Shown one piece after another: positions 14,440 to 64,000 of a DNA stretch of 64,000 nt. This stretch comes from Odontesthes bonariensis (taxonomy: Eukaryota; Chordata; Actinopteri; Atheriniformes; Atherinopsidae). Numbering within the stretch: the first letter of the stretch is position 1; each line of letters starts with the position of its first letter. The DNA lies in assembly GCF_027942865.1 (NCBI RefSeq), contig NC_134510.1, positions 19,399,209 to 19,463,208 of the forward strand. The letters are read 5' to 3'. The translations under genes were made by a program, and so were the position numbers. The notes under the pieces are model-generated. The model was not told the DNA's origin. It ran no database searches and saw nothing but the letters and a program-made list of their open reading frames with translations.

Positions 14440-17400
14440 TGACCTTTATGAGAAGGCAGGAATTTGTTAGAGGAAACTGTCTGCTCTTAAAATGACAATG
14501 ATCTTAAATATCTAAACTATATTTAAAGCACCCTTTTTTGTAAAAAAAAAGAAAAAAAAAAGGGTGAGAAAAATGTTCTTCAATGCTGCCTTCATTATTG
14601 TCCACATTATCTTTGAGCATAAATACCTCGCCCTTTCAAAAATAATAACAGTCTTGAATGTAATGCTCAACATTTTTTAAAGAAAACGTGCCTAAGTCTG
14701 TAGGCTATGCCAAATATAAATCTTGAGCTAGCAGGCAGTTAGCTCAACTTAACATTAAGACTGGAAAGGACAGAAAAGAAATTGGCATTATTGCATGTAA
14801 TCGCCTGTAAAATCACAGATTGTCTTTTTCACATTTTTTCTATATGTGAAGATTAAACAGACCTAAAAATGATGTGATAATAATGATCAAAATGTTTAGA
14901 AGCATGTATTGAGGGAGCATGCTTTCTCTGGCCTGTAGCTTTAATGCTAAGCTAATAAGATAAGCAACTCAGCATGAGAGGAAACATACAAAGTCGTATA
15001 CATTTCCAAAAAACAGCAAGCTTTTGTTCAAAAACTCTAAAAACACATCATTTACAGCGAAAACAAGATAAACTGCCTATGGTACAACAGCATTAAAATG
15101 TTGTATACAATACTGCAGATAATGTAGGTAGGCTATGTAGGAAACATCAGTCCTCCCACACAGGTGTTATCAAACCTCCCTTGATTAGACCTTTAGTTTG
15201 GGTCTGTGTATGCTGGAGTACACGTGGCTGATATCTGAGCCTTAAGTAATTTAAGGGGGAACAGAACACACCACAATCAAATCAGACTTTTTGGCTCACA
15301 CATGTTGGAATGTCAATGAATGAAAGGCGTATATGTGATTTTCAGAACTGCATTTAATTTAGGAGTGCTGGTTCCAAGGTCTATAGTATACTTTGTCCTC
15401 TGTCATGACTCGCTAGAATGGACCCATGCAGTTTGTCACTCCTAACTGTTTAGACAAGTCAAAATGTTGGCAGTAAAATCTTGACCACTCAACCTCAACA
15501 GCTCCCCTTAAATCTAGGTTTACAATATAAATGTGAGCATGATTTGTGACATTACAACTAATTGGGATGTCAGTCCTGGATGTATAAAGGACATGTGATG
15601 TGAAAACTTGTGGCCTGCAAAAACACAATGGACCCTCAGTGATAAATTAAGCATCTTGTTTCCTGTGGTTAAACTTCTGAAATCATTTCCATGTGAACTG
15701 TCATAGCTCATGGGATGTTAGAAAAAGAAAAACTTTTTTTTTTGCATTTTTTCACACTGACCATCTTAAAGAGAAACTGCTGCAGAATCTCATAACCAAC
15801 CCCATTTTAGATACCATATCACATAAAGTTGAGTTAAAGTGTTTGCACATCACTATATTTAGTCCAGATCTGGTGACCAGTAACCCCCTCACCTTTAGCT
15901 CCAGAGAAGCAGTTAGTGATTATGTGTTCAGCAACACAGATTGAGCTCCAGGTGAGTCTGGGCTCCCTGTCCCTTTCAGGAATTCAGTTTCAATGTGGTT
16001 TTTTTGGCTGTGAGATCCAGTTATCCGGATTGTTATCCCATCTGTTGACTGTATCCAACAGTCCAGGAGGCTGCAGTGTGTCAGCTCTGTTTGTATCCCT
16101 GTGATTGTCACTGAACCTGGCTTGCCTTGTCTCTCTCAGTCAGTCTATCTTTGCTTTTTTCTCCAGATAGCTTTTGGTGTTGATGCTCCTCTTGTTACCC
16201 CCATGAGCTGGCAGGTTCAGAAGGCAAAGGCCAGTGGTCTTTCAGAAGTCATGGACCCAGGACTGCATGGTGCAGCATCATCCCAGGCAGGGTCTAAATG
16301 TGTTGAGCGTGGCAGTAGTCACCACTCTGTCGCACAAACTCCATCAACCAGCGATTCTACAATACAAAACAAACACAAAAAAGTTTAAAGATCCCACTTG
16401 CAAGAGTAGTTAGAAAGGTTACAAATAATATTTTAACCTCATGTAGGCTATCTTCAAGGAAATTATTAAACAGATAAATTACCCTAGCCCAACACAATAT
16501 TCTGTGATTATTCAATAATGGCATCCTTACCAACAAATACAACATTTTAACTTAAAATCAGCACAATCTTAGCCTGCATATTACTCTAAAAGATTTTGTA
16601 AACATAGAATTTTCCGGCCGCTATTGCCGCTAAGGCTTAGATTAAAAGGGTCTGAATTGCCATATACCAAGATATTATCTCATGTAAATATTCAAAGCTA
16701 CCGATATTTGCACAAACAAATCTTCCTCCTTACACATAATGGACAACAAAACTGGACAAACAGTTTACAGATGATTTCTAAAACAGAAAATCTAAGATTG
16801 CACATTAACAAACAAATTTAATCTGGTCTAGATAATAAAATTCAACCAAAATAAGAAAAATTGGGCTCTATACCATTAATATGTACAGGACTTTTGGCTG
16901 TTGCTCAGCAAGGCAAAGTTTATTGTGTCCTGTTTTGCAATATTTTGCACTGTTAAATGTACCAGAAAGACAAAGTGTCTCAGAAAGATAAGATTTTTGT
17001 TTGCTAACACAGAAATTAGGTTGATGACTGTTTAGGATGAGGGACTGATGGAACTATAAAGTAAGGAAGTCAAAGGTCTAAAATTGTGCTTACTCACGTG
17101 CTCAAATAATCAGAAAAACAACCAGGAAAAGCTTTGGTAATCTGTGGTCACCTCCAACATACTTACACACAGACTTACACACTCACGCAGAAGACTGAAG
17201 TCTGAACCAGGTTGTTTACTGATTATAATTAGAAATTTTTCCTGTGTCGCCTATAATCAGAGTAGAGATTCATTAACCTGAAAATGAGACATAGAGGAAA
17301 AACTAATATAAGGGCAATATATAAATCACTGCCACAAACCTGAATCAAATAAGATATAAACTCATCACAAGTACTGCAGTCACTTTAGGCAGTTAGCAGA

Positions 17401-36083: not shown

Positions 36084-37087
36084 CCTGCCGTTTTTCCTAT
36101 TTTGTTTTCCACCAGCAGATGACTATTATCCCATATCTCGTTTTTGTACCCAACAGAACAAAAAAACAAGAGAATCAGGACGTGAAACTAGTGGGATATC
36201 AGATATTCAGATTTAGTTATGGAGAAAAAAACACTGGCTCCTATATGAACAGCTTGCTGACAGCATGATAAAGTACACTCCAGTTAGATGAAAAGGCAGT
36301 CAAGGTTGACATTAGCTCCTTTTTTTGTTGTTGTTGTAAATAGACTCGAATAACCAAGACATTTTTTTTTATTATCATCAAGTAATATCACTTCCTTGCA
36401 TTTACAGTACTAACCAGTTCAGTTGATTGAATGAAACAAGTCAGCTGTTCTGCTGCAGGGTTGGAACAAAAACCTGCAGCCACACCGGCCCTTTCACGAT
36501 CAGTTTGAGACCACTGCTATAGATGAACACGGACACCTTTCTGTCTAGATGTTATTGAAGCTCTTAATTTTGCTGTGTCGTATACCATCAGCTATATAAA
36601 ACATCTCATTTTCCAAAAGACGGAAAGAAAACTTTATTGTATAAATCAGAGCGAGTATTTAGCAAGAGATGTGGAAGAGAACTTCTCCTCGCCTTCTCTG
36701 CTATTACCTCTACATATATGAAGAGGCAGGGATGAGGACAGCAACACTGAGGATGCTGGACTGTTCTTCACCCGCTGTCTTAAATTTCAGTTGGGGAACG
36801 GTGGAGGCGAAAGGTGGAGGATTGTGGATAGGATGGGAAGCAGAAGTGGTGAGAAGGTAATGGGAAATGAGAGCGTATGAGATCAAAAAAAAAAAGAAGA
36901 GGCAGCTGTTCGGAGGTAAAACTCAGCCCCCAGGTGTGTCGCTCCGAAACAAGTGGGCGGGCGTTTTCCCTCTTCCACACAGTGACAGCATACAGTTTAC
37001 GAGGAAGTGGAGAGACCAGGAGAGGAACGTTCACGGACGCTTTGGGATTTTAGCAGAGGTTTGACCCTCTGTGAATCAACTGCCAAC

Positions 37088-37124
37088 ATGCAGTTCTTGG
37101 ATTTTTTGGGCTGCACCACTGGAG
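37088..37124 (+). CDS. ptk2: Alternative first coding exon of ptk2 (extended N-terminus, form 1)
   Basis: ATG (A at -3) opens MQFLDFLGCTTG and then a GTATGT donor leaves one base of a codon. That phase fits the 27-nt microexon at 44,093-44,119 and, equally, the FERM exon at 53,888. In both cases the frame stays open into the canonical FAK start. The protein would carry 36 extra residues with the microexon, or 27 without. Upstream DNA (36,900-37,087) has a GC box (GTGGGCGGGC, 36,953-36,962) and an ETS-type GAGGAAGTGG, consistent with a promoter. Expression is inferred. Confidence 0.5.
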
Positions 37125-39829
37125 GTATGTAGGTGCTGTGGTCATGCTGACGGCTCGCTGAGTCCGATAGTTTGGTATATGGGTGCTCGGCAAGTAGAGA
37201 GGGTCTGGCAGGCTGAGGGCTGGAAAGGAATTTGTGTTGCTCACCGCTGAGCAAGCAGTTGCATGCGAAAAACCTCACAGACAGGTAGAGAGTAGAGCGC
37301 AAACAAAGAGGCTTGAACATCTGATACGGTGACAGCCCTGTTGTGTTTCACTTTGATTAACCTGGCTGGTTGCTGCTGACAACAGATTTGACAGATGGGT
37401 TAAGTGGCGCAAATGTGTTTATCTCTCTGAATCTACTTTGGATCGCAGCTGCCAGGCTTCCTTCCAGGGAAAATGTGCTGTCTTATCAGAGTATGCTCAT
37501 ATATTCTGGTGAAAGATTTTAGATTCTTGCCGACCTGGAGATGGGATATCACAACCACTGCTGACTGTATCACAGTGATCCTGAAAGTGTTACATTTAAT
37601 CGTCACTGACACTTATGCCAATGAAAGCCAAAATGTCAACAGCTGTAATTTAACAACCCGCTTATCTGCAGGAGCCATTTTCAATCAATTTTCAATCACC
37701 TGACTCTGTTATAATGTCCGGAGGTCATTTCCTCCGGCAAAACTTGCATTAATTGAGGCAAAGGGGTCTCGATGTTTAATCTGGTTCCGATGGTGTCTTT
37801 TATTTTGTTGTCTACTGTGCAGAAGGACCGTATGCAATCTGATCTTGTAGACTTCTTTGGGCCTTCGGGTTTGGTCATACCTGTGATGCCAAGTGTTAAC
37901 AGATGTTCCTCTGTACAAATGCTGCTTAAAAGTGACAGGCCTCAGCTATCAAATGTCCCTTTTGTCGTCCACAGGAGGACGTGTAGGTGTGCAACTGTTG
38001 TCACGACGTGAGAACTAGTGGCGAACAATTCGAAAAGCTAAAAACACTCTTCTCACCGCTGACCCTGTAGAGGAGTAATAACGTAAAAGATCTGGTCTTG
38101 ACTTTGCAGCCAGATGAAGATGGTCCTCAGGTCTATGGACTTAAATACATAGCGAGTTTATGGCTTCAGATGTAGGAAACAAAAGAATGCACACCCTCCT
38201 GATCTATTAGGGAGTTAAAACTTTACCCCGTTATCTCGGTTAAGTTGTGTGTCTCTTAGTCTTGCCTCCAGTGTGATTACTTTATTGTGCTGTATTGAAT
38301 TCCAGGAGAGGTTTGCCTCCGACACCCAACCTGTGCCCCAGGCCATGTTTTCTGCTGCCGCACTAATAGATAGCTAAGATACCTTATAGTTTCTGTCATA
38401 TCCTTCAGATCATATATCCTCTTTAAAAAAGCAGAAAGAAGACACTGATGGACCCAGTTCTTTTGCTGCAGTATCCACGAATGATATATGATAAGATGAC
38501 AAAATTGCATGTACTTGATGGTGAACATATTCGCAGCCGATCGCTATTTTAGTTCAAAACAAACAAACTTTTGAGAAGACACGGTTGGGATCAGTGGTTT
38601 TTTTATTTCGATGAGCAGGTTATGCTTCCTGTTACAGGCAAAAGAGGAGAAAAGAAAAGATTGAAACACTCCTGCGCCATCATCAGTTGGCCCTTATTTG
38701 CATGAAGAGCTTGCTGTTTTGTTTATGTTATTCGCTACGGTCAGCACTTTGACTCAGGCACAGAGGTTATATGATGACAAAACACACCTCATGTAAGGTA
38801 CTATGGTTGTTTGAGTTCACGTAAAGTTGTGGGTGCATCTTCTATGCGAGTTAATGTGGTATATTTGATTCCTCCATATGTCTATCTCATCACCCTCAGG
38901 CAGCCCGATATGGAAGAAGGTCAGCGTTGCTATAGATGGAACAATTGTGTTTACAAATGTTTCATCTGTCACGAACAAATGACCTAAAGTTTTGAAGTTT
39001 ATCATTTATCACATTGGAATGACTTCTGAAGTCGTCATTGTATGGCGAACCTGATTTTGCAGCTAATGAATATTATTGTCCACATCCACAAACCCATTTG
39101 TGTAAATGACACAGTTAAAACTGTAAACTGCACTGATTTGCAACTCAGCACAACACTTTGTAACTGAAATAGTAAAAATCTCAGATGTTAAAACTTGTCA
39201 ATTTTATATGCTTGTTTTTTGTTTTAAGTGCCATTTTATTGTGAATTTAACGACAGCAAAGTGTATCAAAGAAGCTTGGACATTAAACCTTTGGACCTCA
39301 GAATCCATCCATCCATCGACATGAAGGCGACTGAAGCTGCCTGAAGCTGGAAACGGGGTGCAGCATAATGGCTCCATGATTGTATCTGACAGCAGACGAC
39401 AGCAACTGTTGACTTGAAAAGTTATGTTAGAAAATGAAATAAAACATCTAGAGGGACATCTCATGACCGATTAGGTTAATCGGTCACAAGTTAGTAACAT
39501 GATTGGGTATAAAGAGAGCGTTCGTGATTGGTTGAATGGCAAATAGCTCAACAGTTTGAAAATAAAGTTTGTCACATGATGTCATAGACATTCATTTATT
39601 TATTTTTTTTGACATTTCAAATTTTTTAGTTCATCTGTAGAAAAATTGTGAGCAAGGGACAAGGCTAACAACCAGTATGAGAGGGTTGCTTTAAAATCAG
39701 TGAGAGTGAAAAGAAGCTTTTCGCTGCATCGTCAAATTCAAGTTAAGGCTTCACATTGTACAAAGCAAAAAAAAACATTAAAACAGTTCTTAAATGAGCC
39801 GGTGCTAATTTCAGTTGGGCAGAAGTAGA

Positions 39830-40140
39830 GGGGGAAACTATCTTGTAGTCTAACGTGAATCACAGTTTGAAATTCATTTTGGAAACACTACGCCTGCTGG
39901 AGTTAGAGGAGGAGAAGGAACCATCTGATTTGTTATCAGTGCACAGAACAAGTCCCGACATCCTTCATGGTATGTTAAGCATTATTGCATGCGGAAAGGA
40001 GTGAGTTGCACATTTGTGAAGACGCCAAAAAGGCCTAACATACAGGTTTTGGAGCATCATATGCTGTCTTTTTCAAGGAAGGTCCTGGTAATTTCAGGTA
40101 GACGATCCCAAACCACACAGCTCGTTCACTGCAGTTCAAA
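39830..40140 (+). mobile_element. Tc1/mariner transposase relic
   Basis: Plus-strand pieces resemble the catalytic half of Tc1-type transposase: HGMLSIIACGK (the HGGGSxMxWG block), then NIQVLEHHML and a broken FQGR..CLFQQDNAKPHSA equivalent (sequence near 40,070-40,125). Several frameshifts and stops are present. No terminal repeats were recognised. It lies beside a Penelope-like relic in opposite orientation. Confidence 0.65.
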
Positions 40141-40146
40141 TGCAAA

Positions 40147-40870
40147 TCAATGTAAAAGCACATCCAAGCAGTTACAATTCAAAATACATTCAAGCCTAAA
40201 GTTATCGTTGAACCCATTTGATATCATAGTGTCGAGTGTGTATATCCAAAACAGCAACTCCCGTTGAGGAGTTTTTTGGGGGGTTTTTTTATGAATTTTT
40301 TTAAAAAGCTGATGTTGTAACCCACTGAATTCCACAACACCTCAGTGACGTAGGTGACGCATGTTTTGCTTCAGCATAATGTTTTGCAGTTGCACAATCC
40401 ATGTTGCCGGTACATATTGCTGCTTTTTGTTCACTGATGCTTATCGTTTCAAAGCTCTTTTAGTTTGTCCAGCATATACTAAACCACAGGGACATCACAA
40501 CATATAGATTGCATCGGGTAGATTTACAATTTACAAAATCCTTAATTGGAGTTTTGCTCCTCGTATGAGGGTGATTGAACGATTTAATATGTATTGCACA
40601 ACAAGCACAGTTACCACATCTGTACATGCCGGTGGTGTTAGCCATGAATTCTTTTGTCTATGACACATTTGTGTTTATAACAACATTTTTGATGGTTGGT
40701 GTTCTCCTGAAAAATATAACAGGCAGAGGTCGTTGTTTTGGATCTATACCGTTAACACTATGGTACCATATCATAGACCTAACGATGACCTCAGCCTTAA
40801 ATGTATTTGGAATGAGATTGTTTGTCTGTTTGGATGTAGTTTTGCATAGTTTTCTATTTGATCTCAAATG
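40147..40870 (-). mobile_element. Penelope-like element relic, GIY-YIG region
   Basis: Minus-strand translation shows, in order, PLPVIFFRRTPTIKN, GMYRCGNCACCAIHIKSFNH, HPHTRSKTPIKDFVNCKS, a CPCGLVYAGQTKRALK block (GIY-YIG motif as VYAG) and FWIYTLDTMISNGFNDNF. This is the usual RCGNC...CPCGxxYVGxTxR...FWIYTLxTMxPNGxN order of Penelope-like reverse transcriptase/endonuclease proteins. It is broken by stops. It is a different family from the relic at 25,985-26,600. Confidence 0.75.
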
Positions 40871-41439
40871 AAGATGTGACCTGAGCTGGATCCGGAGTAA
40901 TTCTCTCTTCCTTATTTAGAGGTTGAGTTGTGAGACCCTTCTAAACACTTTGGAAAACTTGTTGGATTTTTTGGCGTCGCTCTCCACTGAAGAGTCCGCG
41001 GTTGAAGTGCGACCTCGTCCCTTTGACTTGTGTCAAATTTTCTCAGCCTTTTCTTCTGTTAACGGGCCGAGCTCTCTGGATCGAAGTGGAAGCACTTGCA
41101 GTAGTCGTGCACATGTATGGATGCCTAACATAAAAAATGCAGATGTGAAAAAGGGTGGCGGTGTACACGAGAGTGTGTTCTGTCTTCACTCCCGTGCCTC
41201 TGCATTAGTTCCACTTCTTCAGTGAGATTGTTTTTGTTGCCGCTTACAGCAACAGCCGCCTCATTAAAGCCGTAGCTGCCACTGTGGTGACTTTTTGCCG
41301 CTCTCTCTGATGTTGCATCGTCTCTCTGCTCGGCTGTACATTACTCTCATTACACATGACTGTTGTTGTTTCCCTGATGAGGATGGAATTGTGCAATGCC
41401 CCTAGCATGGACTCAGCTGGCTTAGTCTTTGTGGTTTAC

Positions 41440-41442
<3 letters not shown>

Positions 41443-41475
<33 letters not shown>
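41443..41475. repeat. T33 homopolymer in ptk2 intron
   Basis: Uninterrupted run of 33 T. It may be the A-tail of a minus-strand retroposed sequence, though no body was recognised next to it. Confidence 0.95.
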
Positions 41476-41479
<4 letters not shown>

Positions 41480-44092
41480 TTTGAGTGGGAGAGAGAACAA
41501 AACAGGCTGAGATCATGAGAGGGGGAATGTGATGGAGTGGGACGGGAGAGTCTGCGAGGACTTATCATACCAGTGAAAGGCAGTTGTAGTGACAGATGTT
41601 GCAGCGCCGCTTTGAGGTTCCAGATTTGTGGCATTGAAAGGTTAAAGTTGGGCTGTTTTTCATGACGCTGGGAGAATACGTCTTGATGTGAAAATGGTAA
41701 AAAGAAAAAAAAACAAGTCTCCTGGATAAAGTATGCATGTGTGTGCCGATGTTATGATTGTACTCCTTTGTGTTCATAGTTGGAATCTTTCTGAAGATAC
41801 AGTAAAAAAGATCTGTGGACTGTTTTCAAGGGGAATAGAGCCTCAAAATTCTGCACGCAGATAAGCCCAGGAAACATTTCAATACATGTTTAATCCGTTG
41901 GCTGCCTTTTCTTGAATGTGCTGCCAGTCCTGGCTAAACTATGCCTATTCTCTATTAATGCTGTATGCATCACTGGTGGATGTTCGAATGAAAGTAAGAG
42001 AGAATAATGCCAGGATTGGTGTCATGTTGTTTGTTCATAGCTACTTTGTAACTTTGTAGCCCACAATTGGACACAAAGGAACAAATTGGATTATGTGATT
42101 ATAACAAATTAATGTGAGGTGGCAAAACACACACTGAGCACCCAGTAAAAGTGGGTAAAGTATTGGATTGCATAAAGGAGCAGATTAAGATCATGTACAC
42201 ATGCAGTTTGATGCGTTAGCCATCAATTAAAGGAAAAACAAATTCTGTGAAATGTTTTTAGCATTCACTAAAATGTGGTAAAAAATGTCCCAGATATGAG
42301 GACGACCTCTACAGTATTTTCTCTGAGCAAATAGTTTACTGTAATTCTTTATCATAAGCACTTCTTATTTCCCAATTTATTTCCCAAACTTGCTTAAAAT
42401 GCATATCCGTGGCGTACACAGTACACTTCAAAGTGAACTGAGAGCTGCTCAAGCACCCCGTTGAGTAAATGCTTGGTCCGTTACATTTTTTTTGTAAATC
42501 GATGCCTGCAGATGTGCGTAGTTGTCCGATGTCTTGTACAGATCCAGTCCACATAAATCTATAATTTGATGGCAATAGCCTGTGGACGTGACATGAGAGC
42601 TCCTATAGGTTTGAATTAGGTGTCAATCAAAAGTCTTCTGAAATCAGCATATCAAGAACGTTTGTATCCAGACTAGACTTCTAGGAGAGAATACATGAAA
42701 GATGAGGCACAGCGGCTGGCCATATGATGCCGAAACAGCAACATGTAGGAATATATTTAAGGAAAGGGTTTTTTGGAATAAAACCTTTAGTGAGCTTGAT
42801 TTTCAGGATATTTGTCAGTAAAAAAAAAAGGTCTTGTTTTTCTTTTTTCACACTCTTGGGGTGAGTCTTTACAATACTAATGTTTTAATATTGGGGTAGT
42901 CTCTATGTTTTCTAGATGTTTTGTGGACAAATAAAAGTACGTACTTTTTTTTTTTTTTTAACTTACTTTAAGCAGCGGTTTACACAATGTATGCTAGTCA
43001 GGGTCTGTAAGAAGTTAGAGCAAAGCTTTTATTCCGTGTGTCTTCTAAAGGCAAAGCCATAACATTTCATATGCACTACAGTCCTGCTTTGTGGCTGTTG
43101 CTTAGTGACAGAAGTCAGCATAGCATCAGAGTGCAGGACTTGTAATCGTGTTGCTAATTTTGATGTCATTTTTTTTTGCTAGAGAATGCCACAAAGTGTT
43201 TGCGAAAAAGGTTGAATGTAGGAGTGGTGAGCAGAGGGTGCCTGGAGGTCATGAGGCAGCTTTGACAGTCGGGGTAAAGTTATTGCAGCATGACAGAGCA
43301 GATACACTCTGCCAAGTCATGGCTCTCGCCTCGCCCTAGCTGTCTGGGATGCAGCACACATCGTACATCCTCCTGATTCATTAATTAAACTTGCTGCATG
43401 GCCTGATCGGCAAATGCTGACTGACATGTAAACAAGTGGATGTGCTTAGCGAGATTAGGAATTGACTCGTGCCGATAAAGCGGGCGATCACTTAGACTGA
43501 ATCATTAGGCTTTTCGAGGGCTCAGAGTCCTCTTTGATTTGCCTGTAACTGTTGTTCAGTTATATTTGCTGTTTGTCATTTGGTACTCAGGCCTTTCTTT
43601 CACATGGTCTCCCTCAATGGCTCTTTCTTTGTACCACTTGTTTTCTGTCCTTTTATACCCCCCATTTTTTTTGTATCCCTTTCTGTCGTCTTGTGAAGGC
43701 TAATGAGGAGCTCTTGAAACTGGATTGGAGAATGTAGGCAAACAAATCGCTCCTTAATGCACTTACAAAGAGACGCTGAAGGATGCACAGACGGCAATCT
43801 TGTCTTTTCATTCATGCAAGACAAATCTTTGTCATCGGCATGATGAGATGATTGGACAATGTATTCCATTTGTTTTATTATCGAGGTTCAGAAACGCCAC
43901 ATTCTTTGGAACACAGAACAGTCTTGCAATAATTGCACTGTGGTTGCATGCTGCGCAGTGCAGTGCGTTGGCTCTCATCGATTAATTGATTTTATGCTAT
44001 TGTTCTGAATTATTTCCCTTTGTAAGTCACTGAATTTTCCGAACAGATTTATGGAAGTAAAATGGATTTTCTTCTTGTCTTTTCTGTTCCAG

Positions 44093-44119
44093 ATATTTCC
44101 AGGATATCTTACTACACTG
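44093..44119 (+). CDS. ptk2: 27-nt candidate microexon of ptk2
   Basis: Bounded by a strong acceptor (TTTTCTGTTCCAG) and a consensus donor (GTGAGT). Length is a multiple of three. Joined after 37,124 it reads DISRISYYT and then continues into EYDSQLAP at 53,888. Of the three frames, only this one avoids a stop in the next exon, and it is the one supplied by the upstream coding exon. Confidence 0.5.
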
Positions 44120-47100
44120 GTGAGTAAAAAAAAAAAAAAACGTGAACAGGTTTTTCCTTTTTTAATTGCATGTCAGTATTGTCGTTTCCACCTGTCTTTA
44201 AATACACTGCAGCATTACATACGTGTGTGTTTGAGTGAGCTGTGTTCTGCATGAGTTCTTGTGTCGGAACTGTTACAGAGGGGATGTTTCACTTATTTTT
44301 TCCTGAATATAGTTTTGTTTTTGAACATTGACGGTATATGATCAATTTTTCATGATTAACACATGCAATACACACAAGGTTTTTCAAAAAGTCACGATGC
44401 GGCTTTGCTTCAGTCTGAAAGAGATGCCTTCACTGTGTCACGGAGTGGATCGAGGAAGAGCAGAATATTTTTTAGAGGTATAGATAAGATGTTTTGTGGC
44501 CCCTTAGCTCCACTCTCCTTCCTTGGTTGTTGCTAGGTAACAGCTGATCCTACAGCATGTCTTCCATCAGAATGTTTGGAGCGGAGAACCTCTCTTTCTT
44601 AAAAAGGAACCGAAAAGTAATTAAGATTTCCGAAACTCAACTTTGGTTGCTCTCCAGTGGGAGGTGCACTGCTTTTTTTTCTCCGAGATTCTCATGAACT
44701 GAAACTTTAAATAAGATGATCTTTTTTTCGTATTTGCTAATGAATTGTTTTGCTGATCGGTATTACTTTTAATTAAAACCTAATGATCTGGCCTTGGCGG
44801 ATGATGGGATGACTGAGCACTCGTGTTATTCTAGGGTTTCTCAAGTGCTTGACAATGTTGTTGCTTTCTTCACCCACTCGAACATACGCTCACTAAGAAA
44901 TGGCAACAAAGCTGCCCTCTGATGCTGTGAGCAACCAACCACTGATCCAAAGCCACCCAGTGGAGGACAAACTGAGCGCAACATTCAGCCTCTGTATGTC
45001 TGTCATGGCACATTTTATATCCTAGAGTACTTTGATAAAACTCAAACCCAAAATTTCCGGGTTCTTGGTTTGCAAAGCCGGTCTGCCTGTGCTTCCTTTT
45101 ACTGATGGTATATTAAACTGGTCTCAGCTTTAAACACGACGATTCTGTAAAACAGCATACATTTATGTCAAGTGCTCCCCCTGGAAATGTCTTCATATTG
45201 TCGGGGCTAAATGGGAAACAAGAGAATGAAACGATCAATTTACTGTATTAATTACAATTATGTCAAAGAAGTTAACAGATTCTTAACACGATCTCACAGT
45301 GGATGTATAATTAGATTCCTGATCTCCAGTTCAATCTAGCTGATGCTGGCAAAGTACCACTGAGCTATTTTTCACTGGCTGCTAAACAAATGAGAAATCG
45401 CTCCACGCACGCTCTTTGAATCAGTGTGTACCGCTGAGAAATTTACAGGCAAGCCGAGCACTAAACTAGCACCGAGGCTGTGGCTGCGGCCACAAAAAGT
45501 GGCAGGAGTCCTGGCAACGCTGTGCCACTGATCGCTTCTTCTGAGCATGCCCCCTACTGAGTTCATGTGCGACGAACCACAGTCTGCACTACACGGTTAA
45601 AAGCTGTCCGTCAATCAACCCCCAGCAAATCAACAGTAGTCATCCAGTTACCTGTTACCAGTTGTAATGTCTATTGAAACCACCTTCCTGCTGATGCAGT
45701 GTCTTACCTTTTTTTCATGGCTGATGACTCATTATCAACTCTGTAGCTTATTTTTATTACAGTCTTCAGTATCGTGCTGAACAGGATGAAACTGTGTGTT
45801 TCGCCAGTCTGGCTGCACCAGAGCGTCCTTCCATAATCCAGAACTTTATTTTTTTGTATGTGCTTTGAAGTATTGATTCAAAATGTAATCATCTTGAAGC
45901 CGAACGAGCTCATCTTAAAAGCAAATGTATTTCGCATCCGAAACGCTAGAAATGTAGCGGCCCAAGTCTCACAATTTCTTTGACAGATACGTGTCGATAT
46001 TTGTAAGATGAGACCTAATTTAGTCCTGAAGGGCGCTGATATGCCGGGGGAAATGGATGTGCAAATCGGTGCATAAATTTGAGCATGAAAACTGTCTTTG
46101 TACCGCATGATGTTTAATTCAGGACCCCTCATCTGCTTGTTGTTCTCGTTTTAGAGAGGGAATATTTCCACGAGCTATGCTGTTTTAATTGAAAATGTAG
46201 CAGTCAGCTGATTTGACAGAGCTGTAGATGTTCTTTTTTGAAGAGTTATTTCACTCATTGCAGTTTCACAAAAGACACGAGCACTTAATGTGGCAACCGA
46301 TGCACCTCAGAGTTGACAGCAGCGTTTTATGTGCCTCATCCACAGGCTGACTTTTGATAATCCAGCAATTGTGTTGATATTTGTAAATATAATTTTGACA
46401 ATTTCCGTGGAGTGAAGATCTCTTGCCCCTCCTGTGATCTTTGGCGCCCCCCGTAGGGGATGGGGGGGACTCCAGGTTGGGAGCCACTGCTTTAGATAAC
46501 AGTTATTCTGAAATCCAGGCCCATCTACACACCTACTGGCTATTTCTGAGTTATTTAACCAACGCTGTCTGGTCATATATCTGAGCGGAATCCAACTTCT
46601 CAAAATCACTATGCCACAACCACCATCGCATTACCCACAATGCCTCCTTCTTAAAGGAGAGGGCTCGGCTGGTAGAGTAACAGTTCTGAATTGGCTTTTA
46701 AGCAGCTTTTCTTTGGAAAGATTTCAGATTGCATGAAATTTTCATTTAATTGACAGCGAAGAGTCATGCAGTCGAAGATTTGAATGAATGACAATTAATA
46801 CTTTCGAATTGTGATCATTTTGTTTGCTCTGAAACTTTTACAGTAATGATTTAATGTACACAATGCTTTTGCCACGGAAGGGGTGACATTTCACAGGAGC
46901 TGGCAAATACGTTTGGAGAGAAGGAGAGGAAACTAAGTGAAGATAGGAGGCAGTGGAGACAGAGAAGGAGAAAACAGAGAGAGAGAATCAAGTGTTGAAA
47001 GCAGTAAAAGGGAGTAAAGTACGTTTTCAATAGCTTAGCACTGATCTTCTAAGACCTTGTGAGTACGTGGTTATATGAGTGCCAGTTGATTATCGATGGG

Positions 47101-52500: not shown

Positions 52501-53931
52501 AGTCATTCACTAAGACGCATCACATATTTCATAGCGTTTTCCTCGAAAAGGCAGCTGGCGGTCAACCTCCTTAAAGTGCTGAAACAATGTTTTCTGGATC
52601 AGTTTCCGTATTTCTGCCTCTTTCTGTTTCACTAGAAAGCAATCTGGATGTGACCCGAGCGCAACACAGAAAATGCTGAATATACTGATTTAAATGTTAA
52701 TGCAAGTTTTTTTTTTTTTCTGCTTGCTGCAGGCTGTTCATCTGCAGTAACTTTGTCTGTTGAATTTACTCTCTCAATATTTTGTAGATCAGGGGTGTAA
52801 TCTAACGAACCAGAGCATGTTGATTCTAGCTTTGATTGGTATTTTCGCCAGTTATTTTAATACAATAGCCCAAAATCACAGTCGGTTGGGGCCAGTTCCT
52901 TTAGCGATGATGACTCAACAAACCCAGCTGGGATAGCCAGGAAGTGACAGTAAGCTGGAGGAAGCATCGGGGTATGCGGTATTCTCACTAAACGATAAGA
53001 CTGTGGCAAGACTACAGTAGAAAGAGAGGATAAATCTATAACTCGAAACAGAAGATGGGGGATAAAGGATGTTGTTGTTTCTGCTCAATTCTGGTTGTTT
53101 GCATCAGTTAAGCTCTGCGACATATTTGTTGTAGCTTCATACTTCTGTGTCAGTAAATGTGCAGCCTTGCCTCCAGGATGTATCTGTAGTGAAAGTCGAG
53201 CTCCGAGTATCAGATGAAGAATCAGGGTTGGGAAATACCTGGATGTGGAAAGGCTTTCTTATCGTGGGCCACGACTAGTATGTCCGGAACTATCCACTTA
53301 TCCTCCGTGTCTGACATATTGTTGTTTTGCTTCTAGCCGGGCAGTCACTTGGCCCGATCAGGGTGCTAGATATGCACACACGAGAGGCTCAATTCTGGCT
53401 CGTAGATGTGGGCCTCATACTCATTACACTGCGGGGAGGATGTTCTGACCAGTTCCCTTGCGCACTGTTGAACCTAATGCTTAACAAAACTGCCGACATA
53501 GTTCATTTAGAAACTGGCTGTCTTTACAGTTTTACAGCTTTATTTCCCAGTGTTTGAAGATTTGTTATCATGGTTTAGAATATTGTTCACTTAATGGACT
53601 CTCAGTCCCTTGGGACCTCATTAAAAAAATTTTTTCTCTACAACTGGATTTGTTTGCCTGTTTTGGTCATGACTGAGAGGCTGTGTGAGTGTCTCCATTT
53701 AAAACAAGATTGAGAAGTATTTTACGACATTCTCTCATCATATTAGCTCTGTTATACTGTAATACTGTGTTATTCTGAAGATAATTAAAGGACTTTCCCC
53801 TTGAGGAATTTTGAAGTTCATGAGAGTGTAATATAATGGGCACTAATGCTCCTTACACTAATATGTTTTTTCCATCCCCATTTTCAGAATATGACAGCCA
53901 GTTAGCCCCAGCAGGACCGTCTGAGTCTGGC

Positions 53932-56900
53932 ATGGCATCGTCTTCCTACCTGGAACCAAGCCTCAATCACTCCGCAGCGGGTGGTTGTGGGGTTAAGTCC
54001 CGGCCTGGAATGCCTAGCGGTCCCAGCACAAGTGGCTCTGCTGGAGGACTAGAGCGGCCCCCAGGCTCCATGGACCGGGTTCTTAAGATCTTCCATTACT
54101 TTGAGACAAACAGCGAACCATGCATGTGGGCAAGTAATATCAGGCACGGCGATGCCACAGATGTTAGGGTAAGATGCACAAACCTTTCACACATGTCAAG
54201 TCCTCAACCGCTCCCCTGAGTGACTTTTACTGTCGCTTTTACTTTGTTTGTCGTCTTGTTTCAACAGGGTGTTATCCAGAAAATAGCAGAAATCCACAAA
54301 CTGCGCTGTGTATCTTCTTTGGGCCTCCGGCTAACCCATTTGCACTCTGACGCTCTCCACTGGTTACACCCTGATTTGGGTGTGTCTCATGTGAGAGAGA
54401 AATATGAGAAACGGCATCCACAGGAGGAGTGGAGGTAAAATTCCCAAGATTCATCATCTGCTCCCACTCCTTGTCTCCGCCCTTCTTAAACTCCCTACTT
54501 TAGGAATACTAGAGGGTAATAGTAAGGTACAGTCTGTGGAAGATTATCAGTACTCAGTTAAGGCTGACAGAGTCTCTTTTTTGCTTGTTATTTTCTGCTT
54601 GACTTCTAAAGTAAACATCCCACATTCCACAATGTTGTGCTAATATAAAACAGCAGGGCAAAAAAACTGGCTTCACTCTGTTCAGAGTAAGATAACTGTC
54701 TGATCGATAAATAACCCTGCCAACTAACAATAGTTTATCACATCTGCCTTACAAGCTGTTGCTGGATCCCATTAAGCTCCTCATTTAATAGTCTCATGAA
54801 ACATCACAGCAAGATGTAAAAAAAAATTGCCTATGTAAGCTACTCTATGCAAATAATATAAAATTCACCCCAATATTACCCCCAGTAGTAAGTTCCTGAT
54901 ACTTTAATACAGTCCAAAGTTGATCTTTATCATTCTTCTGTACCATACAAACGTTTGTGGATTATTCAATTCAAATCATTTGAATGCCCTTTTCATCTTA
55001 TTAGGCGACACAGTTGCCAAATGTGATGTTTTATGGAGAAATCATTCATTACTTTTTCTTAATGCTCAGCATTTGAAACCAGCTCAGTCCATTTTTAGCC
55101 TGAACACCAACCATTCTGGCACTTGGCCGTCCTCAGGTCAGTTGATGTTCTTAGCAGCTCTCCTCAAAATTCAGTCCTCTGCCATTTGATGTTCCACCCG
55201 AAGTCATTACGATTTAAAGGAATTCAAAAAAGAATTCAACAAGAACCATTAAGATGGAGCGCAAGAGGTCTGCCATTTGTTGCAGCCAGTGTGCCTCAGA
55301 GGGCGGCAGAGCTGCAAGCCCGCAGGAGTTTCTGCTGCTGCCAAGCTATTGTTAGAACAGCAGCAGCAGCTCAGGGGATGGACTCACTCTGTCTCACTCC
55401 GTTCTCTCTACCTTGCGTGTTTAGTGTTATTCTTTCTCGTGTGTGCACGCTCTCTCCTTTCACTTTGATCCTTCTGTCCACCCTTTTTATAAATATTTTT
55501 TTCTCCTTTGCGTTCCCTCGTTTCTCTCGAGCACATTATTTTCTTTCCTTTGGATTGATTCATAATAGAATAGAAATGATTTATTCATTTTGTCCTCGGC
55601 CTTGATAAGCCTTGTTATCTAACTGCAGGCATGTAGCATCACAGCAGTGAGGAGCTCACTACTCTCCTGACCTATTTCTTTCTCCTTTAGTCACTGCAAT
55701 GTGTCACTTATGAACAAATATGCCAATGCAAACATTCGTGCCCTATGTGGGCACATCTGTGGGCAAGTGTAGATGCACGAGTATGTTTATGCTCTGTCCT
55801 ATTACAGCTTAATCACTTTCAGTCAGTTGATGTGTCAGCAAATCATTACGTAACATTTACTGCACCACCAGATATAGTACAGTGAATAGAGAGAGCCACG
55901 TCCTTCAACTTCAAGACACAAGAGTTTCATGCTCTTTTGTTGGCAAACGGCCACCATGTTAAAGTGATGCAGCGAAATGAGCACAACACACAGAATCTAC
56001 CCTGATCCATCAGTACTGTCCTGTCAGATGCTCTCTGTACCTCTCTGTGCACATGGGGGGGGGGGATATCCCACTGTCACATTGTCCCTGTCATTCTCAG
56101 GTATGAGTTGCGGATACGGTACCTTCCTAAAGGTTATCTCAGCCATTTTTCTGAAGACAAACCTTCTCTTAACTACCTCTATCACCAGGTGAGGACACCC
56201 AGCAGGATCGCAGAGAAAGAGGAGAGAGAGAGAAAGTGTATTTGCTTTGAATTATGTCTATCTTTTTATTGACACCTGTTAAATGCGACTGCTTCCCATC
56301 TTTTACATCTTAACCACGCTGGCATGCATGAAATCGCTGAAACATACACTCGAAGGAATTTTGCTGAAACCTGAAATGGGATGATGATGTTGTGTCATTC
56401 CAGGTGAAAAGTGACTATATGCAACATATAGCAGACCAGGTGGATCAAGATGTTGCGCTGAAACTAGGCTGTTTGGAAATAAGGTGAGAAAAAAACAGGA
56501 GTAAACGCAGTTAGTAGCTGTGTTCCCACCCAACCGTCAAGCACACTTGAAATGCTTAAGGAGAGGCCTTCAGGAATTTGTTGCGGGTGGGGTTGTGTCT
56601 ATTCTTTTATGCGAGTATGAACCATGATTGATTGGTTGGATTGGAATTTATTTGCAAAGGGCATTTTCGTTTACCCTGATATCTATCAACTCTTTGAAAA
56701 TGAAAACTTTCTTGTTCAGTGAAGACGCCTTAAAGAATTTAGCATTTTCTAATGTGCGACGTGCATATACAAAGAATAGATGGAAAAGCCCACTGGTAAC
56801 AGCTGTCTGGCTGTCAGAATTTAAGTTAACGCTTTCAGTCTTGGTGAGTTAGTCGTTGCTTATATCACATACATTGCGTAAACTATGACACAAATTCTAG

Positions 56901-59900
56901 TTTATTTACAGACATCTTTTAACTCTGCTAATACGCAATGTCACCTTCTGCCGATGAACTACACAGGAGGTTCTTCAGAGAGATGCCAGGCAACGCGCTG
57001 GATAAGAAATCCAACTATGAACTACTAGAGTAAGATGGATATTTGGTCCACACTGTGAACTATGTTGCCTCAAATTCAACTCTCATGATCATATTTAACA
57101 GTGTGTGAATGTAGATTTGTAACAAAGATAAACGTGGCATTGTTCTTTGCAGGAAAGACGTGGGTCTGAGAAGGTTCTTCCCCAAAAGCCTGTTGGACTC
57201 CCTGAAGGTGAGGTGAAACCGCTGGAAAACAAACAAAGCCAGTTAGGGATTTTTATGTGTACCACAGTCTGAAAAACTGGAGGCTTCAAAAGCAGTAATG
57301 ATATCCAAACCCTTCTTAGTGTGCTGGTTGAATTACAGCTGACAGGCTGTTTGGTCGACTGACAGGAGAACAATCTTTATGACTGAATGGATGTCTGATT
57401 ATTTGATGATTGTACTGAATTTTGTGAAACCCCCTGTTATCATCTCGCAGCATGCCCCATCAGTTATGTGTTGTACTTTTCTTGGCTGTGAACCAACTTT
57501 CTCTGAGGGATTTAACCCTAATGTAATGCATTTTTTTTTTCTCCCTCTCTCCCCTCTCTTTAGGCGAAGACTCTTCGTAAGCAAATCCAGCAGACCTTTA
57601 AGCAGTTTGCTAACCTCAACGATGAGCAGAGTATCCATAAGTTCTTTGAGATACTCTCTCCCATCTATCGCTTCGACAAGGAGTGCTTCAAATGTGCTTT
57701 AGGGGTAGGATGACGCTCTGCTTTTTTCTTCTTTATACTTACATTTGCAGTTTTTGGACCACATGCCTACTCAGATTTAGAATTTAGTTTGATTACACTT
57801 TTCTCTACAGCAATGTTTTATTACTTTGCAAACCTGTATCCTGTCTTTGGGGGGCTTTTTATATCAAAATGAGATCAGATGAGCATTATTCTTTATTTTG
57901 TAATGTTTCACCAAACATTTTTTTTTTGTCAGTACAATATTAAGACAAAAACAAAGCTATTTTTAATCAGAGATATTTGAATTTAATGTTTTTCTTGCTG
58001 TCTTTTCTTCTCGCCCTTAGTCTAGTTGGGTAATATCAGTAGAGTTAGCAATCGGACCAGAGGAAGGAATCAGCTACCTCACAGATAAGGGCTCAACGGT
58101 GAGTATGTACACATATCTTATACATGCATACTTACAAGTATACGTTATGCTCTTGATTGGGATGAATGGTTGCAATCCACCATAGAGCCCTCTACTGGTT
58201 TGTCTGTGTAAGCCAGATTTCCTCTCGTCTCCACAATTAGTTTTAATGAGTTTTTGAAATGCCTAAAAGCCCAAGCAGCTTCTGCTATAAGTAATGTGTT
58301 AGTATGTGCCAGTAAGAAGGCCAAATGTGTTATCAACAGGTCACAGTGTAATTGGGAAAACTGAACAGCACTAAGCAGGTACTGCAATAAGGAATCAAAA
58401 TATAATGGACACGTTGAATAGATGTAGTATCGACATCTATACAAAAACAATAAGTCTCAAATATCATCCTCTTTGTGCTGTAAGCAAACCTCAGCGATTT
58501 CGGTCAAGTTCTGAGTCCTGCGCCCTCGACCCTGCCAACTCTCCCTCACATTTGCAGTAGCGATAACACCCGGAGGCACAGAATCACCTGATGAGATAAG
58601 CTTGTGTAAACAGCAGCTGCTGAGAAATTCTCCATCCATCGTCCTAAAAGATGTTGGTGTTTATATGTGAAAATTGCTTTGAAGTACTTTCTTGAGTTCA
58701 CTGTGTGCACTTCTTGAAATCTTTGATTTACTGGTTAGAAAACCTATGATGTTAAAACTCTTTGGCCTCTCCTAAATGCTAAGTGGTGCACACTTAAACA
58801 GCACTGCTTTTTTTTCTCAGTCAAAGCTCTACAAGTTTTTAATGCAAGTGCACAACTCCAGAGTAGTGAAACACCCCTGGGCAAGAATATTCCCCCCACC
58901 ATGTTCCACTCTGGGTTTGATACCCTGCTGCATAAATGCCTTTCTTGTTCATCTCTCTAAATAAAGTCCTCTCTTACCTTGGATTGATAAATATATAGAA
59001 CTTTGCTTACATGCACTGTTATCTTTATTTCTGCTGTATTTTCAATTGATTTCAATTCAGTTTTATTCAGAAAGTGCCAAATCACACCTTCCTTCAAGGT
59101 TGGCTCTCCCCCATCATTGTGAAGTATAATTCGCCAAGCGGAAGATTGTTCACCCACTAAAAGGGAATGTGAGCTGGGTTTAGACTGTCGTGAGACCGGC
59201 TAGTTTTACCCCCTCTGATGATGTGTTGTTGCAATAGAAACAACACATCATCATTTGATACAGCTGATCTAGTTTCCACAGCGCTTCCAAGTGCCTCCCT
59301 GCCTCCTTAGAGATCTCCAGTCTATATTATTTGATGCTGAAAAAGCTCCTCTATTACTATCGTGATTTCCACTATTACTTTGTAATGTGCAATTTCCAAC
59401 GTATGATGGAAACTTGAGACACAATCACACGTAGTGAGCTGCAAGAGGATTTTCTTGAACTTGCTTCTGTGTGCAATCTCAGCGGCACCTCAATGAGTAC
59501 ATCTCAAGTAAATCTGAAAAATTGTTGCCTTTTAGGAGCAGCTGGGTTTTATTTTTAGATTTAGAGATATGTTTAGAATCCATCTTGCCAGCATCCACAC
59601 TGTCAGTTTGTGGTGAAATCGTAACAGTTAGAACCAGTTAGTGTCCTACATGGGTAGTTACAGGCTTTAGGTGTGATAACATTCACCAGTGGCTGCTCCC
59701 ATTCACAGACTGGTTTTGTGTGATTCTTCTTGATCCATCTGATTGGCTGAAGAACACTTGGCTTTGATGCTTTGATAATTAGATACAGCATCAAATCGAA
59801 TCTTTTTTTAAAAAGCCTGCCCTTTTTTTCAAACTGATCCTGACGACGGCTCGATGGTTGAGTGAAAAAAACAAAAACATGAGGCTCGTCAGTTCCGAGC

Positions 59901-61487
59901 AATGATGCAGAATCTGAAATAGTTTTTTCTCAGTTTACGGTCCAAACTTCTTTTCTCAATATCCGTTTCTACATGAATGCACTTTGTGATTAATTTAAGT
60001 TTGCACGTCAATCGATACTTGCATCATATGGGTCCGAATGTCTTTTGTCTCTGCAGCCTACTCACTTAGCTAACTTTAACCAAGTCCAGTCCATTCAGTA
60101 CTCTGCTTTGGAAGAGAAGGACAGGAAAGGGATGCTGCAGCTAAACGTGGCAGGAGCTCCAGAGGTAAACATGTACCTTGAATCCTATTCCTTTGGCTTT
60201 TCCATTCAAGGGTGGCTAGTGAAAACGTTACTTATTGCTTGTTACATTAGAAGCACAAGTACTTTAGGGTACTTATATATCCCTAAATATACATATATAT
60301 ATATATATATATATATTTATTTAATTTTATGAATCTAAATCCAAAATCCCGTTGCTGGTATGTACATGGCTTTTAACCATATTTGGCGCATTGTATTTTA
60401 GGCACTATCTTGTTCCTTTTTTTTTCTTAAAGACCATCGTTACTAAGAACGAAAGAAAGAAACATACAGTATATTTATCTTGTTTAACAATTGAAGTTGT
60501 ATTACCACACAGGAAAAAAAAAACAGCATTTGAGTATGTGAGGGCATCTGTTGCCATACCCACTTGAGAGTCAGAGTGGGTCTGTGTTTGCAGCAGGCCT
60601 CAGTTGATGGAAAAGCATGTGTGCATCACTGCGACAGAATCAGTGTAGGGGTGTGTACGCCTAGATCATGTGCACAGACTGGTAGGGGACGTTATTCCCA
60701 ATAAAGCTCTCATTGTGCCATTGTGAAGCAACTCCCTGTGGCACTCTTACACTAATCCCTCTGTCTGTGTGGGTGTGCAGCCCCTCACTGTCACTACGGC
60801 ACTGCTTACTACGGCGGAAAACATGGCTGACCTGATTGACGGCTACTGTCGGCTCGTCTCCTCAGTTACTCACTCCTTCATTGTCAGAGTTCACAAAGGT
60901 AGGGTGCACAACTGCTCGGATTTTACGCTAAACACGTGTGCCCAAATGTGGGTTTTCTGGAATGTTGTACAGCATTATACTTAGTGGTAGAGTTCTGCAG
61001 AGCAACATGATGATTGTGATCTTTTTTTTTTTTGTGTTATTTGAATAGTAGCTGTGGGAAGGGGAAGAGAAACCTTATAGCAAAAATAGTATCCAGACTG
61101 AAATTTTAAACTGTACTTAACTCTGATTGTTGCTAGAGAGACTTCGTGCTTGTCACTTTGAATAATAACCAGCCCGTGTGTTGTTAGTCCTCTCTAAAAA
61201 TAGCTATGGCTGCAAAGAAATGGCTGCAGTTAAGTTGGGGCTCTAACAGGAGGTCAGTCTGCTCTCCGTCTAATTCATCTGCTCATTTTGTCTCTGCAGA
61301 GGGTGATAGAGCCCTTCCTTCTATACCAAAGTAAGTGAACTAATTCCCTTTATGGATATATAGAGATGTAAGATGTAAAAGCTTTAGCTGGTTTCACACA
61401 CTAGAAGTGTTTTTTGTTTTTTTTTAATCAAAGGTCTGCTTATGGATAAGAAAACAGCATATGTTACCTCACTTTTGCTAGGACATC

Positions 61488-61524
<37 letters not shown>

Positions 61525-62978
61525 TTGATTCAATGTCTGGCTCTAATCCACAGCGACATCTTAATTTTGATAAGTTTTTCGGTCCTGTAATTGCTGATAC
61601 GATGAACAGAATATTCCGAGGGATATACAGACACTTGCCTGGGTTCTTAGTTTAACACTGTGAAGCAGGACACCTGACAGCAGGAGCTTCCTTTTCTCTC
61701 CGCGTTTCTACAGATAGTAGCTTATTCTGACTATGCTGCTTGGGTTAATGTGAGCCAAATCTCAATAACGATTCTCTCATCTCTGCTGCAGAGTTTCAAA
61801 TCATGAGAAGCGGATGGAGAAACGGATGGAAGGAGTACGAACGCGAGCTGTTTGTGTTTCAGGTATAAATCCCCGTCTTGTTTTCTCTTTGCCACTTTGT
61901 CCACTTCACCACCGTCTGCTTTAAATGTCATGAAGGACAGTGAGTGTTGGGTAAAAGCTTCATAGATATGTGTGTGCGTACCCAGCTTCCCTGATAAAGC
62001 CTCATCTGTGCGTGCAGTGAAGAGTCCTTGTCTCGCCAGATGTCCTAATGGAGAGCTTTAGTCACTGTCACTGGTTCTGCTCTGACCTCTGACTGACTCA
62101 CAGTTTAGAATGAAAACATCTTCAGTGCTGTGGTTGGCGCTTAAATTCTAGATTTTGATCCCATTAAGAGGAAACTAATGCCTTGTTTTTCTCTAATGTG
62201 TTTGTGTTTCATGCTGCATGTGGCTTCTGCAGGTCACATTAGTGGCGATGGTAAACTCATTCTTTTTATTAAACCTCTTTAGGTAGTAACACAATAAGAT
62301 TCGGGGGCTTTTTCTTTTGCAGTTAGTGTGTCGTACATATGCACCGTATCTTTGTGTCTCTTTTTTTGTGTGTGCGCTAGCTGATGTTTTTGTGTGACCC
62401 ATGACTCAGGCTGGGTTTCTTAAGCTTGTTTCTCTGGAAAGAGAAAATCTTTCCATTCCTCCCCTTTCCTCTTGCCTGCATTTTTCTGCCTTTGTCTCTC
62501 ACTATTGAACTGCTCTGGCTCATTCCTTTTGTGCATCTGTTCAGTAGTACATGAACATGGTAATTGTCGCCCTTGCGTTTTGAATCGGGTACGGTGGCAG
62601 TCTTTTGGAAAGGCACTTCTGTCTGATGAGTGTTTCTGTTGCAGTTTGTCTCTGTGAGGGTGTGTTCACTGAATTTTTTCGCTGCGTGCAGTGATTTGTG
62701 TTAATGGGAGGTGGTAGATGTCAGGAGAAGGGTTACAGTTTTTCATAACACAAAGCGAAGATCCAACTTTTTGTTCTGTGCTATGTCAAAGATGTGTTCT
62801 GTCATCTTTTTGAGTTTTTGAGCTGACTTTGTTGTCAGCTCTCTGTCTCTTATCTGTCACCAACTGAGACGTGATGTTTCTTGGCTCTTTCTCCTCTCAT
62901 GACTTCATTTTGGCTCTGCAGAAACAGACGACTATGCTGAGATCATAGATGAGGAGGACACTTATACCATGCCTTCAA
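53932..62978 (+). CDS. ptk2: Focal adhesion kinase (FAK), FERM domain and linker; 5' part of gene
   Basis: Non-receptor tyrosine kinase of integrin adhesions. Exons: 53888-54168 (canonical ATG 53932), 54268-54434, 56101-56188, 56404-56483, 56967-57029, 57153-57207, 57564-57704, 58021-58098, 60057-60164, 60781-60898, 61300-61330, 61792-61862, 62922-62978. All phases agree, giving 431 codons plus one base. The start [13 protein letters not shown] aligns with human MAAAYLDPNLNH. The FERM domain spans about 49-369. The basic patch KAKTLRK, the Src SH3 site RALPSIPK, and autophosphorylation Tyr417 in [15 protein letters not shown] (human Tyr397) are all present. Oddities: Phe replaces human Tyr180 at residue 194, the linker has six extra residues with a KRMEKRME duplication, and the N-terminal tail before FERM is 14 residues longer. 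The open frame before the ATG continues to 53,888, supporting longer forms. Kinase, proline-rich and FAT regions lie outside the window. Confidence 0.96.
58187..58198 (-). promoter_or_regulatory. CTCF-like core motif in ptk2 intron
   Basis: The minus strand reads CCAGTAGAGGGC, matching all 12 core positions CCASYAGRKGGC. The following flank fits less well. It lies in the intron after the exon ending at 58,098. Confidence 0.35.
59091..59238 (+). pseudogene. 28S rRNA-derived fragment
   Basis: About 150 bp closely match the 3' part of eukaryotic 28S rRNA. Landmarks are ATCATTGTGAAG, ATTGTTCACCCACTAA, GTGAGCTGGGTTTAGAC, TAGTTTTACCC and TGATGATGTGTTGTTGCAATAG, all in the right order with scattered substitutions. 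It stops before the sarcin-ricin loop sequence. It lies inside a ptk2 intron on the sense strand and cannot be a functional rRNA. A CAATTCAGTTTTATTCAG...GCCAAATCAC repeat-like block precedes it. Confidence 0.85.
59217..59252. repeat. 14-bp inverted repeat at the end of the 28S fragment
   Basis: GATGATGTGTTGTT at 59,217-59,230 and its exact reverse complement at 59,239-59,252 flank an 8-nt loop (GCAATAGA). The left arm is genuine 28S sequence. The right arm is not the 28S continuation. Confidence 0.9.
60293..60316. repeat. (AT)n microsatellite in ptk2 intron
   Basis: Pure AT run of about 24 bp after the exon ending at 60,164. Confidence 0.9.
61492..61522. repeat. A31 homopolymer in ptk2 intron
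   Basis: Uninterrupted run of 31 A between the exons ending at 61,330 and starting at 61,792. No retroposed body was recognised upstream. Confidence 0.95.
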
Positions 62979-64000
62979 GTAAGTAAACATACGCTGATGG
63001 ACATACACTCAAGATGTTGACGGTAGCTAATGTGTCAGGTGTGTCAGTGTGTGTGCGTTTCTGCTGACCAGTGTAGAATACTGTGAGTGTGTGTGCGAGC
63101 GTTTCATGATGTGTGTGCAGATGGAAAGGTTACGTGGTGATATGTGGAGAAATATGTTGACATGTGTCTGTGTGTGTGATTGTACTTTTAAGTTCTGCAT
63201 TTAACAGCAGAGTTGAGAAAAACATTTTTACGTGGAGACCTCGTTATTCTGTCTGAAAACCAGATAAAGGATGTCTCCTTAAAGAATATTAAAGTCACAT
63301 GGAAGGTCAGATTCAGCTTTGAAAAATGCATTTCTTTGAAGCTCAGGACCATGGTATGCTATTAACCGTATGTTATTTAATTAAGTCAGACATCAGCTTT
63401 CATTCGAGGTCTTTTCAGATGGCTAAATAGATGGATGACTGACCTTTGAATGAAACTACATTTTCCATAGTAACATTCAGTCTTCACATTCAGAAGAGGA
63501 AGCTTCTTGAAACACACGCTGTGTACTATTACGCTTGCAGTCTATATTTGTTTTGGTGAGTTGCCACAGGATTAAGCAAGATTTGGGGATTTCCCTTTGA
63601 CACATTATCTACACCACGTCTGAATTATAGTCAACACTCTAAATGATTCTGTATCTCTCAGAGTGCCAGTGTGTTATTATTTTCAGTGTGAAACATTAGT
63701 TGATTAAGATATTGTACTTGAGGAAAGCCTGCATTAGCTGCTGAGTAGTGCCTGTTCATCAGGTTTAGGACTGTTGCTCATATTATGCTCACTGCAACGC
63801 TAAATGGGCAACATTGAGAGGCAGAGAAGATGGGTGATGTGACCTAAATGTAGGGGAAGCAAAGCTTGGGCATTAAGTAACAATATTTCACATCACTTGG
63901 AAAAAAAAAAAGACTTTTTGGAATTGCCCATTTAAACTGCCCCAAAATGCTGCCTGGATATTGTAAACTCATGTTCCATCCAGCGCTTGCTTTTTGACCA
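62979..64000 (+). other. ptk2: ptk2 intron running off the window
   Basis: Starts with the GTAAGT donor after the exon carrying the autophosphorylation site. GT-rich stretches lie at about 63,040-63,180. No further exon was recognised before the end of the window. Confidence 0.7.

Follow-up and report, generated by a model that had tools for sequence, protein, structure and literature searches.

The 64-kb window from Odontesthes bonariensis (contig NC_134510.1; the whole stretch of 64,000 nucleotides, nt, analysed here) carries, as judged from its sequence, the 5′ part of the FAK (PTK2) gene on the + strand. Upstream of the first canonical FAK exon lie an ATG-led candidate exon near 37 kb and a 27-nt microexon near 44 kb which, spliced in series, would lengthen the FAK N-terminus by 36 residues (Table 1). 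The gene was recognised by tblastn, by comparison with solved protein chains and by Pfam, which together gave a FERM domain and a linker with the Tyr-397 segment. The first canonical exon matched nine distinct sequences of solved chains at E ≤ 0.1 (best 9.8e-13), all nine named focal adhesion kinase 1, and the Pfam family FERM_N_2 at 24 bits for a cut-off of 23.8 (E 6e-5). An approximate human FAK sequence, used as tblastn query, matched up to residue 413 only, and the window stops at 64000. Searches with the first canonical exon yielded 489 pattern matches in prokaryote genomes and 27 in viral contigs, with no confirmed relative in either, as expected for a vertebrate gene. One of the following FAK exons has its acceptor at 54268, and further downstream an exon or a border is missing after 61330, because the interval 62922-62978 reads out of frame.

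Table 1 Features of the 5′ part of the FAK gene in the window.
Feature	Position	Strand	Description
Possible promoter or leader of the ATG exon	36955..37087	+	GC box GGGCGG at 36955, ETS-like AGGAAGTG at 37002
Candidate first coding exon	37088..37124	+	ATG 37088, 37 nt, MQFLDFLGCTTG, phase 1, donor GAG/GTATGT
TGCATG (RBFOX motif)	43945..43950	+	148 nt upstream of the microexon
Polypyrimidine tract and microexon acceptor	44062..44092	+	Also holds the in-phase ATG 44062
Probable coding microexon	44093..44119	+	27 nt, (G)DISRISYYT, phase 1 to phase 1
Two TGCATG motifs, at 44167 and 44248	44167..44253	+	48 and 129 nt past the last base of the microexon
First canonical FAK exon	53888..54168	+	44 nt of open pre-ATG frame (EYDSQLAPAGPSESG), ATG 53932, followed by the beginning of the FERM domain
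Further FERM and linker exons	54268..62985	+	Reach the Tyr-397 segment near 62.98 kb; exon set 61330-62922 incomplete

The microexon is bordered by TTCTGTTCCAG on the acceptor side and by GTGAGT on the donor side. Splice sites were scored with a simple position-weight matrix of approximate frequencies, and not with a trained fish model; on this score its acceptor ranked 11th of the 4144 AG sites and its donor 9th of the 3813 GT sites. Among pairs enclosing 3-60 nt on either strand with both sites scoring at least 8, it had the highest summed score. It also surpassed the summed score of every usable known FAK exon of the window, although single sites of these exons can exceed its own (acceptor 14.4, donor 12.5); ten of the 12 FAK exon intervals entered this comparison, the dropped ones being that with a border at 54331 (the acceptor lies at 54268) and the last one (62922-62978). 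The pair is thus clearly above chance. It could nevertheless be argued that chance splice-like sequences in a 17-kb intron have been mistaken for an exon, since an equally good pair occurred in 8 of 200 simulated 64-kb sequences (second-order Markov, one strand), two of the eight with a length divisible by 3, and since the scoring matrix is so simple. We hold this to be quite improbable: the pair is the top one of the window, the expectation scaled to the intron is about 0.01, and the pair is moreover in frame and flanked by TGCATG. The element is shorter than the 51 nt allowed for a microexon (≤51 nt), has usable splice sites, a length divisible by 3 and an open frame, and a real coding microexon probably exists at 44093-44119, within the 5′ part of the FAK gene.

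The original prediction had proposed the ATG-led exon ending in phase 1, the 27-nt exon with strong splice signals, and a FERM exon whose frame stays open for 44 nt upstream of its canonical ATG, all three joining in one open frame. The coordinates, the phases, the splice strength and the open 44 nt were all recovered, the FERM-exon acceptor at 53888 ranking 27th of the 4144 AG sites. Translation of 37088-37124 joined to 44093-44119 and to the exon starting at 53888 gave a single open frame with no stop and 36 extra residues; when the microexon was skipped the frame was kept, with 27 extra residues. Before the canonical Met the joined product reads MQFLDFLGCTTG, DISRISYYT and EYDSQLAPAGPSESG, and the upstream in-frame ATG exon would form, at the level of sequence, an N-terminal extension of FAK. 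Slightly acidic overall, with 5 D/E against 1 K/R, the extension carries tyrosines at residues 19, 20 and 23 and a single cysteine at residue 9; a function for the YYT/EYDS tyrosines or for the cysteine would be speculation. The further claim that the microexon is readable in one frame only did not hold for the microexon alone, which has no stop in any of the three frames. The other two frames break at the junction with the FERM exon or inside that exon, so the FERM exon accounts for the single readable frame no less than the microexon does. An exon at 44093-44119 that leads in frame into the FERM exon has good sequence support, and FAK isoforms extended through the ATG exon and the microexon are plausible.

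We examined the surroundings of the proposed start. The donor of the ATG exon ranked 35th of the 3813 GT sites, and ATG 37088 stands in a context of medium strength (A at -3, C at +4). No ATG occurs between 36880 and 37087. Compared with the other candidate start exons (seven in total at a threshold of 8.0), the 300 nt before ATG 37088 had the highest values, with a GC content of 0.51 and 12 CpG, and it was the only one of the seven lacking another ATG in the preceding 100 nt. The ATG exon has therefore the most promoter-like surroundings of the seven, and the use of ATG 37088 as a start is plausible. Self-BLAST within the 64 kb found no second copy of this exon, and a repeat origin was rejected as far as the window itself shows. 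Just upstream of it, at 36867-36933 (+), a second phase-1-open ATG exon (MRAYEIKKKKKRQLFGGKTQPP) was observed, with a donor score of 10.2, stronger than that of the donor at 37124.

One of the other starts would make the 44-kb element itself an alternative first exon, driven by an intronic promoter before 44062 and giving a protein that begins MDFLLVFSVP-DISRISYYT-EYDSQ. The ATG at 44062 is in phase and open to the donor at 44119, and its context, A at -3 with G at +4, is good. A first exon, however, has no need of the very strong acceptor (11/4144) that immediately precedes the 27 nt, the pyrimidine content of the tract may account for its coding reading, the upstream 300 nt have a GC content of 0.39, and two more ATGs occur in the preceding 100 nt. 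We consider this origin very doubtful.

Alternatively, the 37-kb exon and the microexon may both belong to the ordinary 5′-untranslated alternatives of FAK, as in mouse and human, with a coincidental or unused frame and a protein starting at ATG 53932. Mammalian FAK transcripts combine many 5′-untranslated exons according to the accessible part of Corsi et al. 2006 (PMC1570463), the canonical ATG lies in a stronger context (GGCATGG), and the joint coherence of the frame is just mildly improbable. On the other side, a transcript beginning near 37.0 kb would present ATG 37088 as its first ATG, with A at -3, so that at least some scanning ribosomes should start there. The peptide ahead of the canonical Met also weighs against an untranslated role. 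The pre-ATG frame of the FERM exon starts with EYDSQLA, and in the human transcript NM_005607, as given in the same part of PMC1570463, an alternative ATG exon (-3bH) extends FAK through EYDRYLA, so extended FAK is a kind already known. The two peptides agree at 5 of 7 positions. Over all six frames of the window, 2 of 87,284 stop-free 7-mers matched the human peptide that well, namely EYDSQLA itself and an EYDR-like one at 28598, which was taken as chance. This likeness favours a conserved element at the exon start, coding or regulatory, and one species pair cannot separate the two. We regard an untranslated role for both exons as unlikely, though far from negligible.

SRRM3/4-type neuronal microexons carry a UGC close upstream of their acceptor. 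Here the nearest TGC on that side, at 43995, begins 98 nt ahead of the microexon and none starts in the last 97 nt, which speaks against SRRM3/4 control; SRRM4-type control was ruled out on this ground. The window contains 33 copies of TGCATG on the + strand, and at least two copies within the following 150 nt were found at 0.34% of its positions. Among the ten GGTRAGT donors, only that of the microexon has two TGCATG within 150 nt, and two others have one. Li et al. 2015 (PMC4317164), in the accessible text, report for brain, muscle and heart that bound RBFOX favours the inclusion of microexons, chiefly from the 3′ flank, that PTBP1 may repress microexons via the pyrimidine tract or indirectly, and that the regulated microexons have weaker splice sites whereas constitutive ones have more T just upstream. 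The fish element resembles the RBFOX/PTBP1-regulated microexons described there in being a tiny in-frame exon with a pyrimidine-rich tract and with TGCATG in its 3′ flank (44167 and 44248). It departs from their tendency, which is not a strict one, to weaker sites: both of its sites rank close to the top within the window, and 11 of the 16 bases just upstream are T. The original prediction had gone as far as a tissue-specific isoform with an altered tail before FERM. The altered tail gains from the in-frame exon and from the human precedent; tissue specificity stays unproven, being favoured by the TGCATG flanks while the strong splice sites look more constitutive.

Our favoured explanation, to which we give a probability of about 0.55, is a FAK gene with a promoter near 37 kb, an ATG exon, a genuine 27-nt coding microexon and a 36-residue extension. 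The strength of the splice sites, the joined open frame and the identity of the gene are the observed part of it. Transcripts would start from the 37-kb promoter with the ATG-bearing first exon and be spliced to the microexon, then to the first canonical exon, all boundaries being in phase 1. The predicted product would be FAK with 36 residues (27 without the microexon) added in front of the FERM domain's N-terminal tail. Should ATG 37088 be used, leaky scanning past it, given its medium strength, could yield the canonical protein from the same messenger RNA, and the microexon may be controlled by factors of the RBFOX/PTB type.

Several points weigh against this explanation. A phase-1-open ATG was present at 5 of the 21 donors scoring at least 8.8 between 9.6 and 53.86 kb, the five including the ATG exon at 37088 itself and, for the microexon donor, the ATG at 44062, and at 6 of 31 donors over nearly the whole minus strand; by itself, the open phase-1 frame of the ATG exon does not exceed chance. 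The chance of staying open is 45% both for a random 27-mer in phase 1 and for a 42-nt stretch in any one frame, so the openness ahead of the canonical ATG is unremarkable. Near 37 kb the observed/expected CpG ratio is moderate: the 500-nt windows from 36501 and 36751 give 0.58-0.60 and that from 37001 gives 0.44, for a window median of 0.41, and several other places lie above the 37-kb region; the candidate promoter is no strong CpG island. In the accessible part of PMC1570463, the human extended transcript was not amplified by reverse-transcription PCR from adult brain and the use of its ATG was undemonstrated.

A broader version of the favoured explanation would make the long N-terminus the default and ancient form of this fish FAK, with a constitutive microexon and a pre-ATG frame of exon 1 that has been coding since the fish-tetrapod ancestor; part of the described 5′-untranslated region of vertebrate FAK would then be coding, with extra tyrosines ahead of FERM. 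We rate this version as improbable.

FAK is kept inactive through its FERM domain, so an altered tail ahead of this domain could matter, and it could change membrane or partner binding. Should the extension be real, an isoform starting upstream would escape reagents aimed at the canonical fish ATG, and gene models would label coding sequence as untranslated. The human precedent makes such an extension less surprising.

Other features were observed in the window. An intron of FAK contains, at 59091-59201 (+), a fragment of eukaryotic large-subunit ribosomal RNA (rRNA; Rfam RF02543, 90.1 bits, model positions 2875-2984 of 3401), perhaps a 28S-derived mobile element or a fragment of ribosomal DNA. 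The intron between the microexon and exon 1 shows, at 45501-46400, a CpG observed/expected ratio of up to 0.88 at a GC content of 0.41, which may mark a promoter or a young repeat. At 15905-15951 (+), a 47-nt exon-like pair combines the strongest donor of the + strand (13.1) with an acceptor scoring 9.5 and is possibly another 5′ exon. Head to head with FAK lies a C2H2 zinc-finger gene at 795-9521 (-), with Pfam zf-C2H2 matches (the scan covered 4817-5740); its open reading frames presumably resemble ZFAT.

In the open-licence literature, no report of the fish exon was found among the matches listed (titles and starts of abstracts), and annotated gene models may already contain this exon. Peptide and nucleotide terms did not retrieve the present extension, and they retrieved the human extended peptide in PMC1570463 only. 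The accessible main texts of PMC7058935, PMC4782988 and PMC4471347 did not give the start-region sequence of zebrafish FAK, and PMC11297290, in the part available, deals with Ptk2b rather than Ptk2. Microexons themselves are familiar in this gene: as far as the accessible portions of these sources go, in human brain the 18- and 21-bp microexons of PTK2 occur mainly in neurons, MicroExonator reported unannotated alternative microexons in four mouse genes including Ptk2 (PMC7821500), and a zebrafish microexon paper cites raised Ptk2 autophosphorylation upon microexon inclusion (PMC13281805). The conserved alternative FAK exons 13, 14, 16 and 31 (boxes 28, 6, 7 and PWR), as described in the portion available, also belong to this gene and are likewise short, coding and in frame; they sit around Tyr-397 and before the FAT domain, unlike the 44-kb microexon, which precedes FERM.

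The upstream part of the gene finds its counterpart in mouse and human FAK, which in the accessible part of Corsi et al. 2006 (PMC1570463) have multiple 5′-untranslated exons in many combinations. As with their exons -1 to -4, several alternative exons would lie here between promoter and canonical exon 1; those mammalian exons are described as untranslated and were compared with the fish exons by description only. Among the closest known systems is the human transcript NM_005607, in which an upstream ATG exon also splices to canonical exon 1 and gives an in-frame N-terminal extension. Its ATG, which diverges from the consensus, would give MISADCNLCLPEYDRYLASSKI before the canonical Met, a sequence of 22 letters in the table of that paper versus 25 residues in its text, with the junction unmarked in the table. 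Unlike the fish arrangement, human exon -3bH is, in the same source, Alu-like, present in chimpanzee, not conserved in mouse, and without a microexon.

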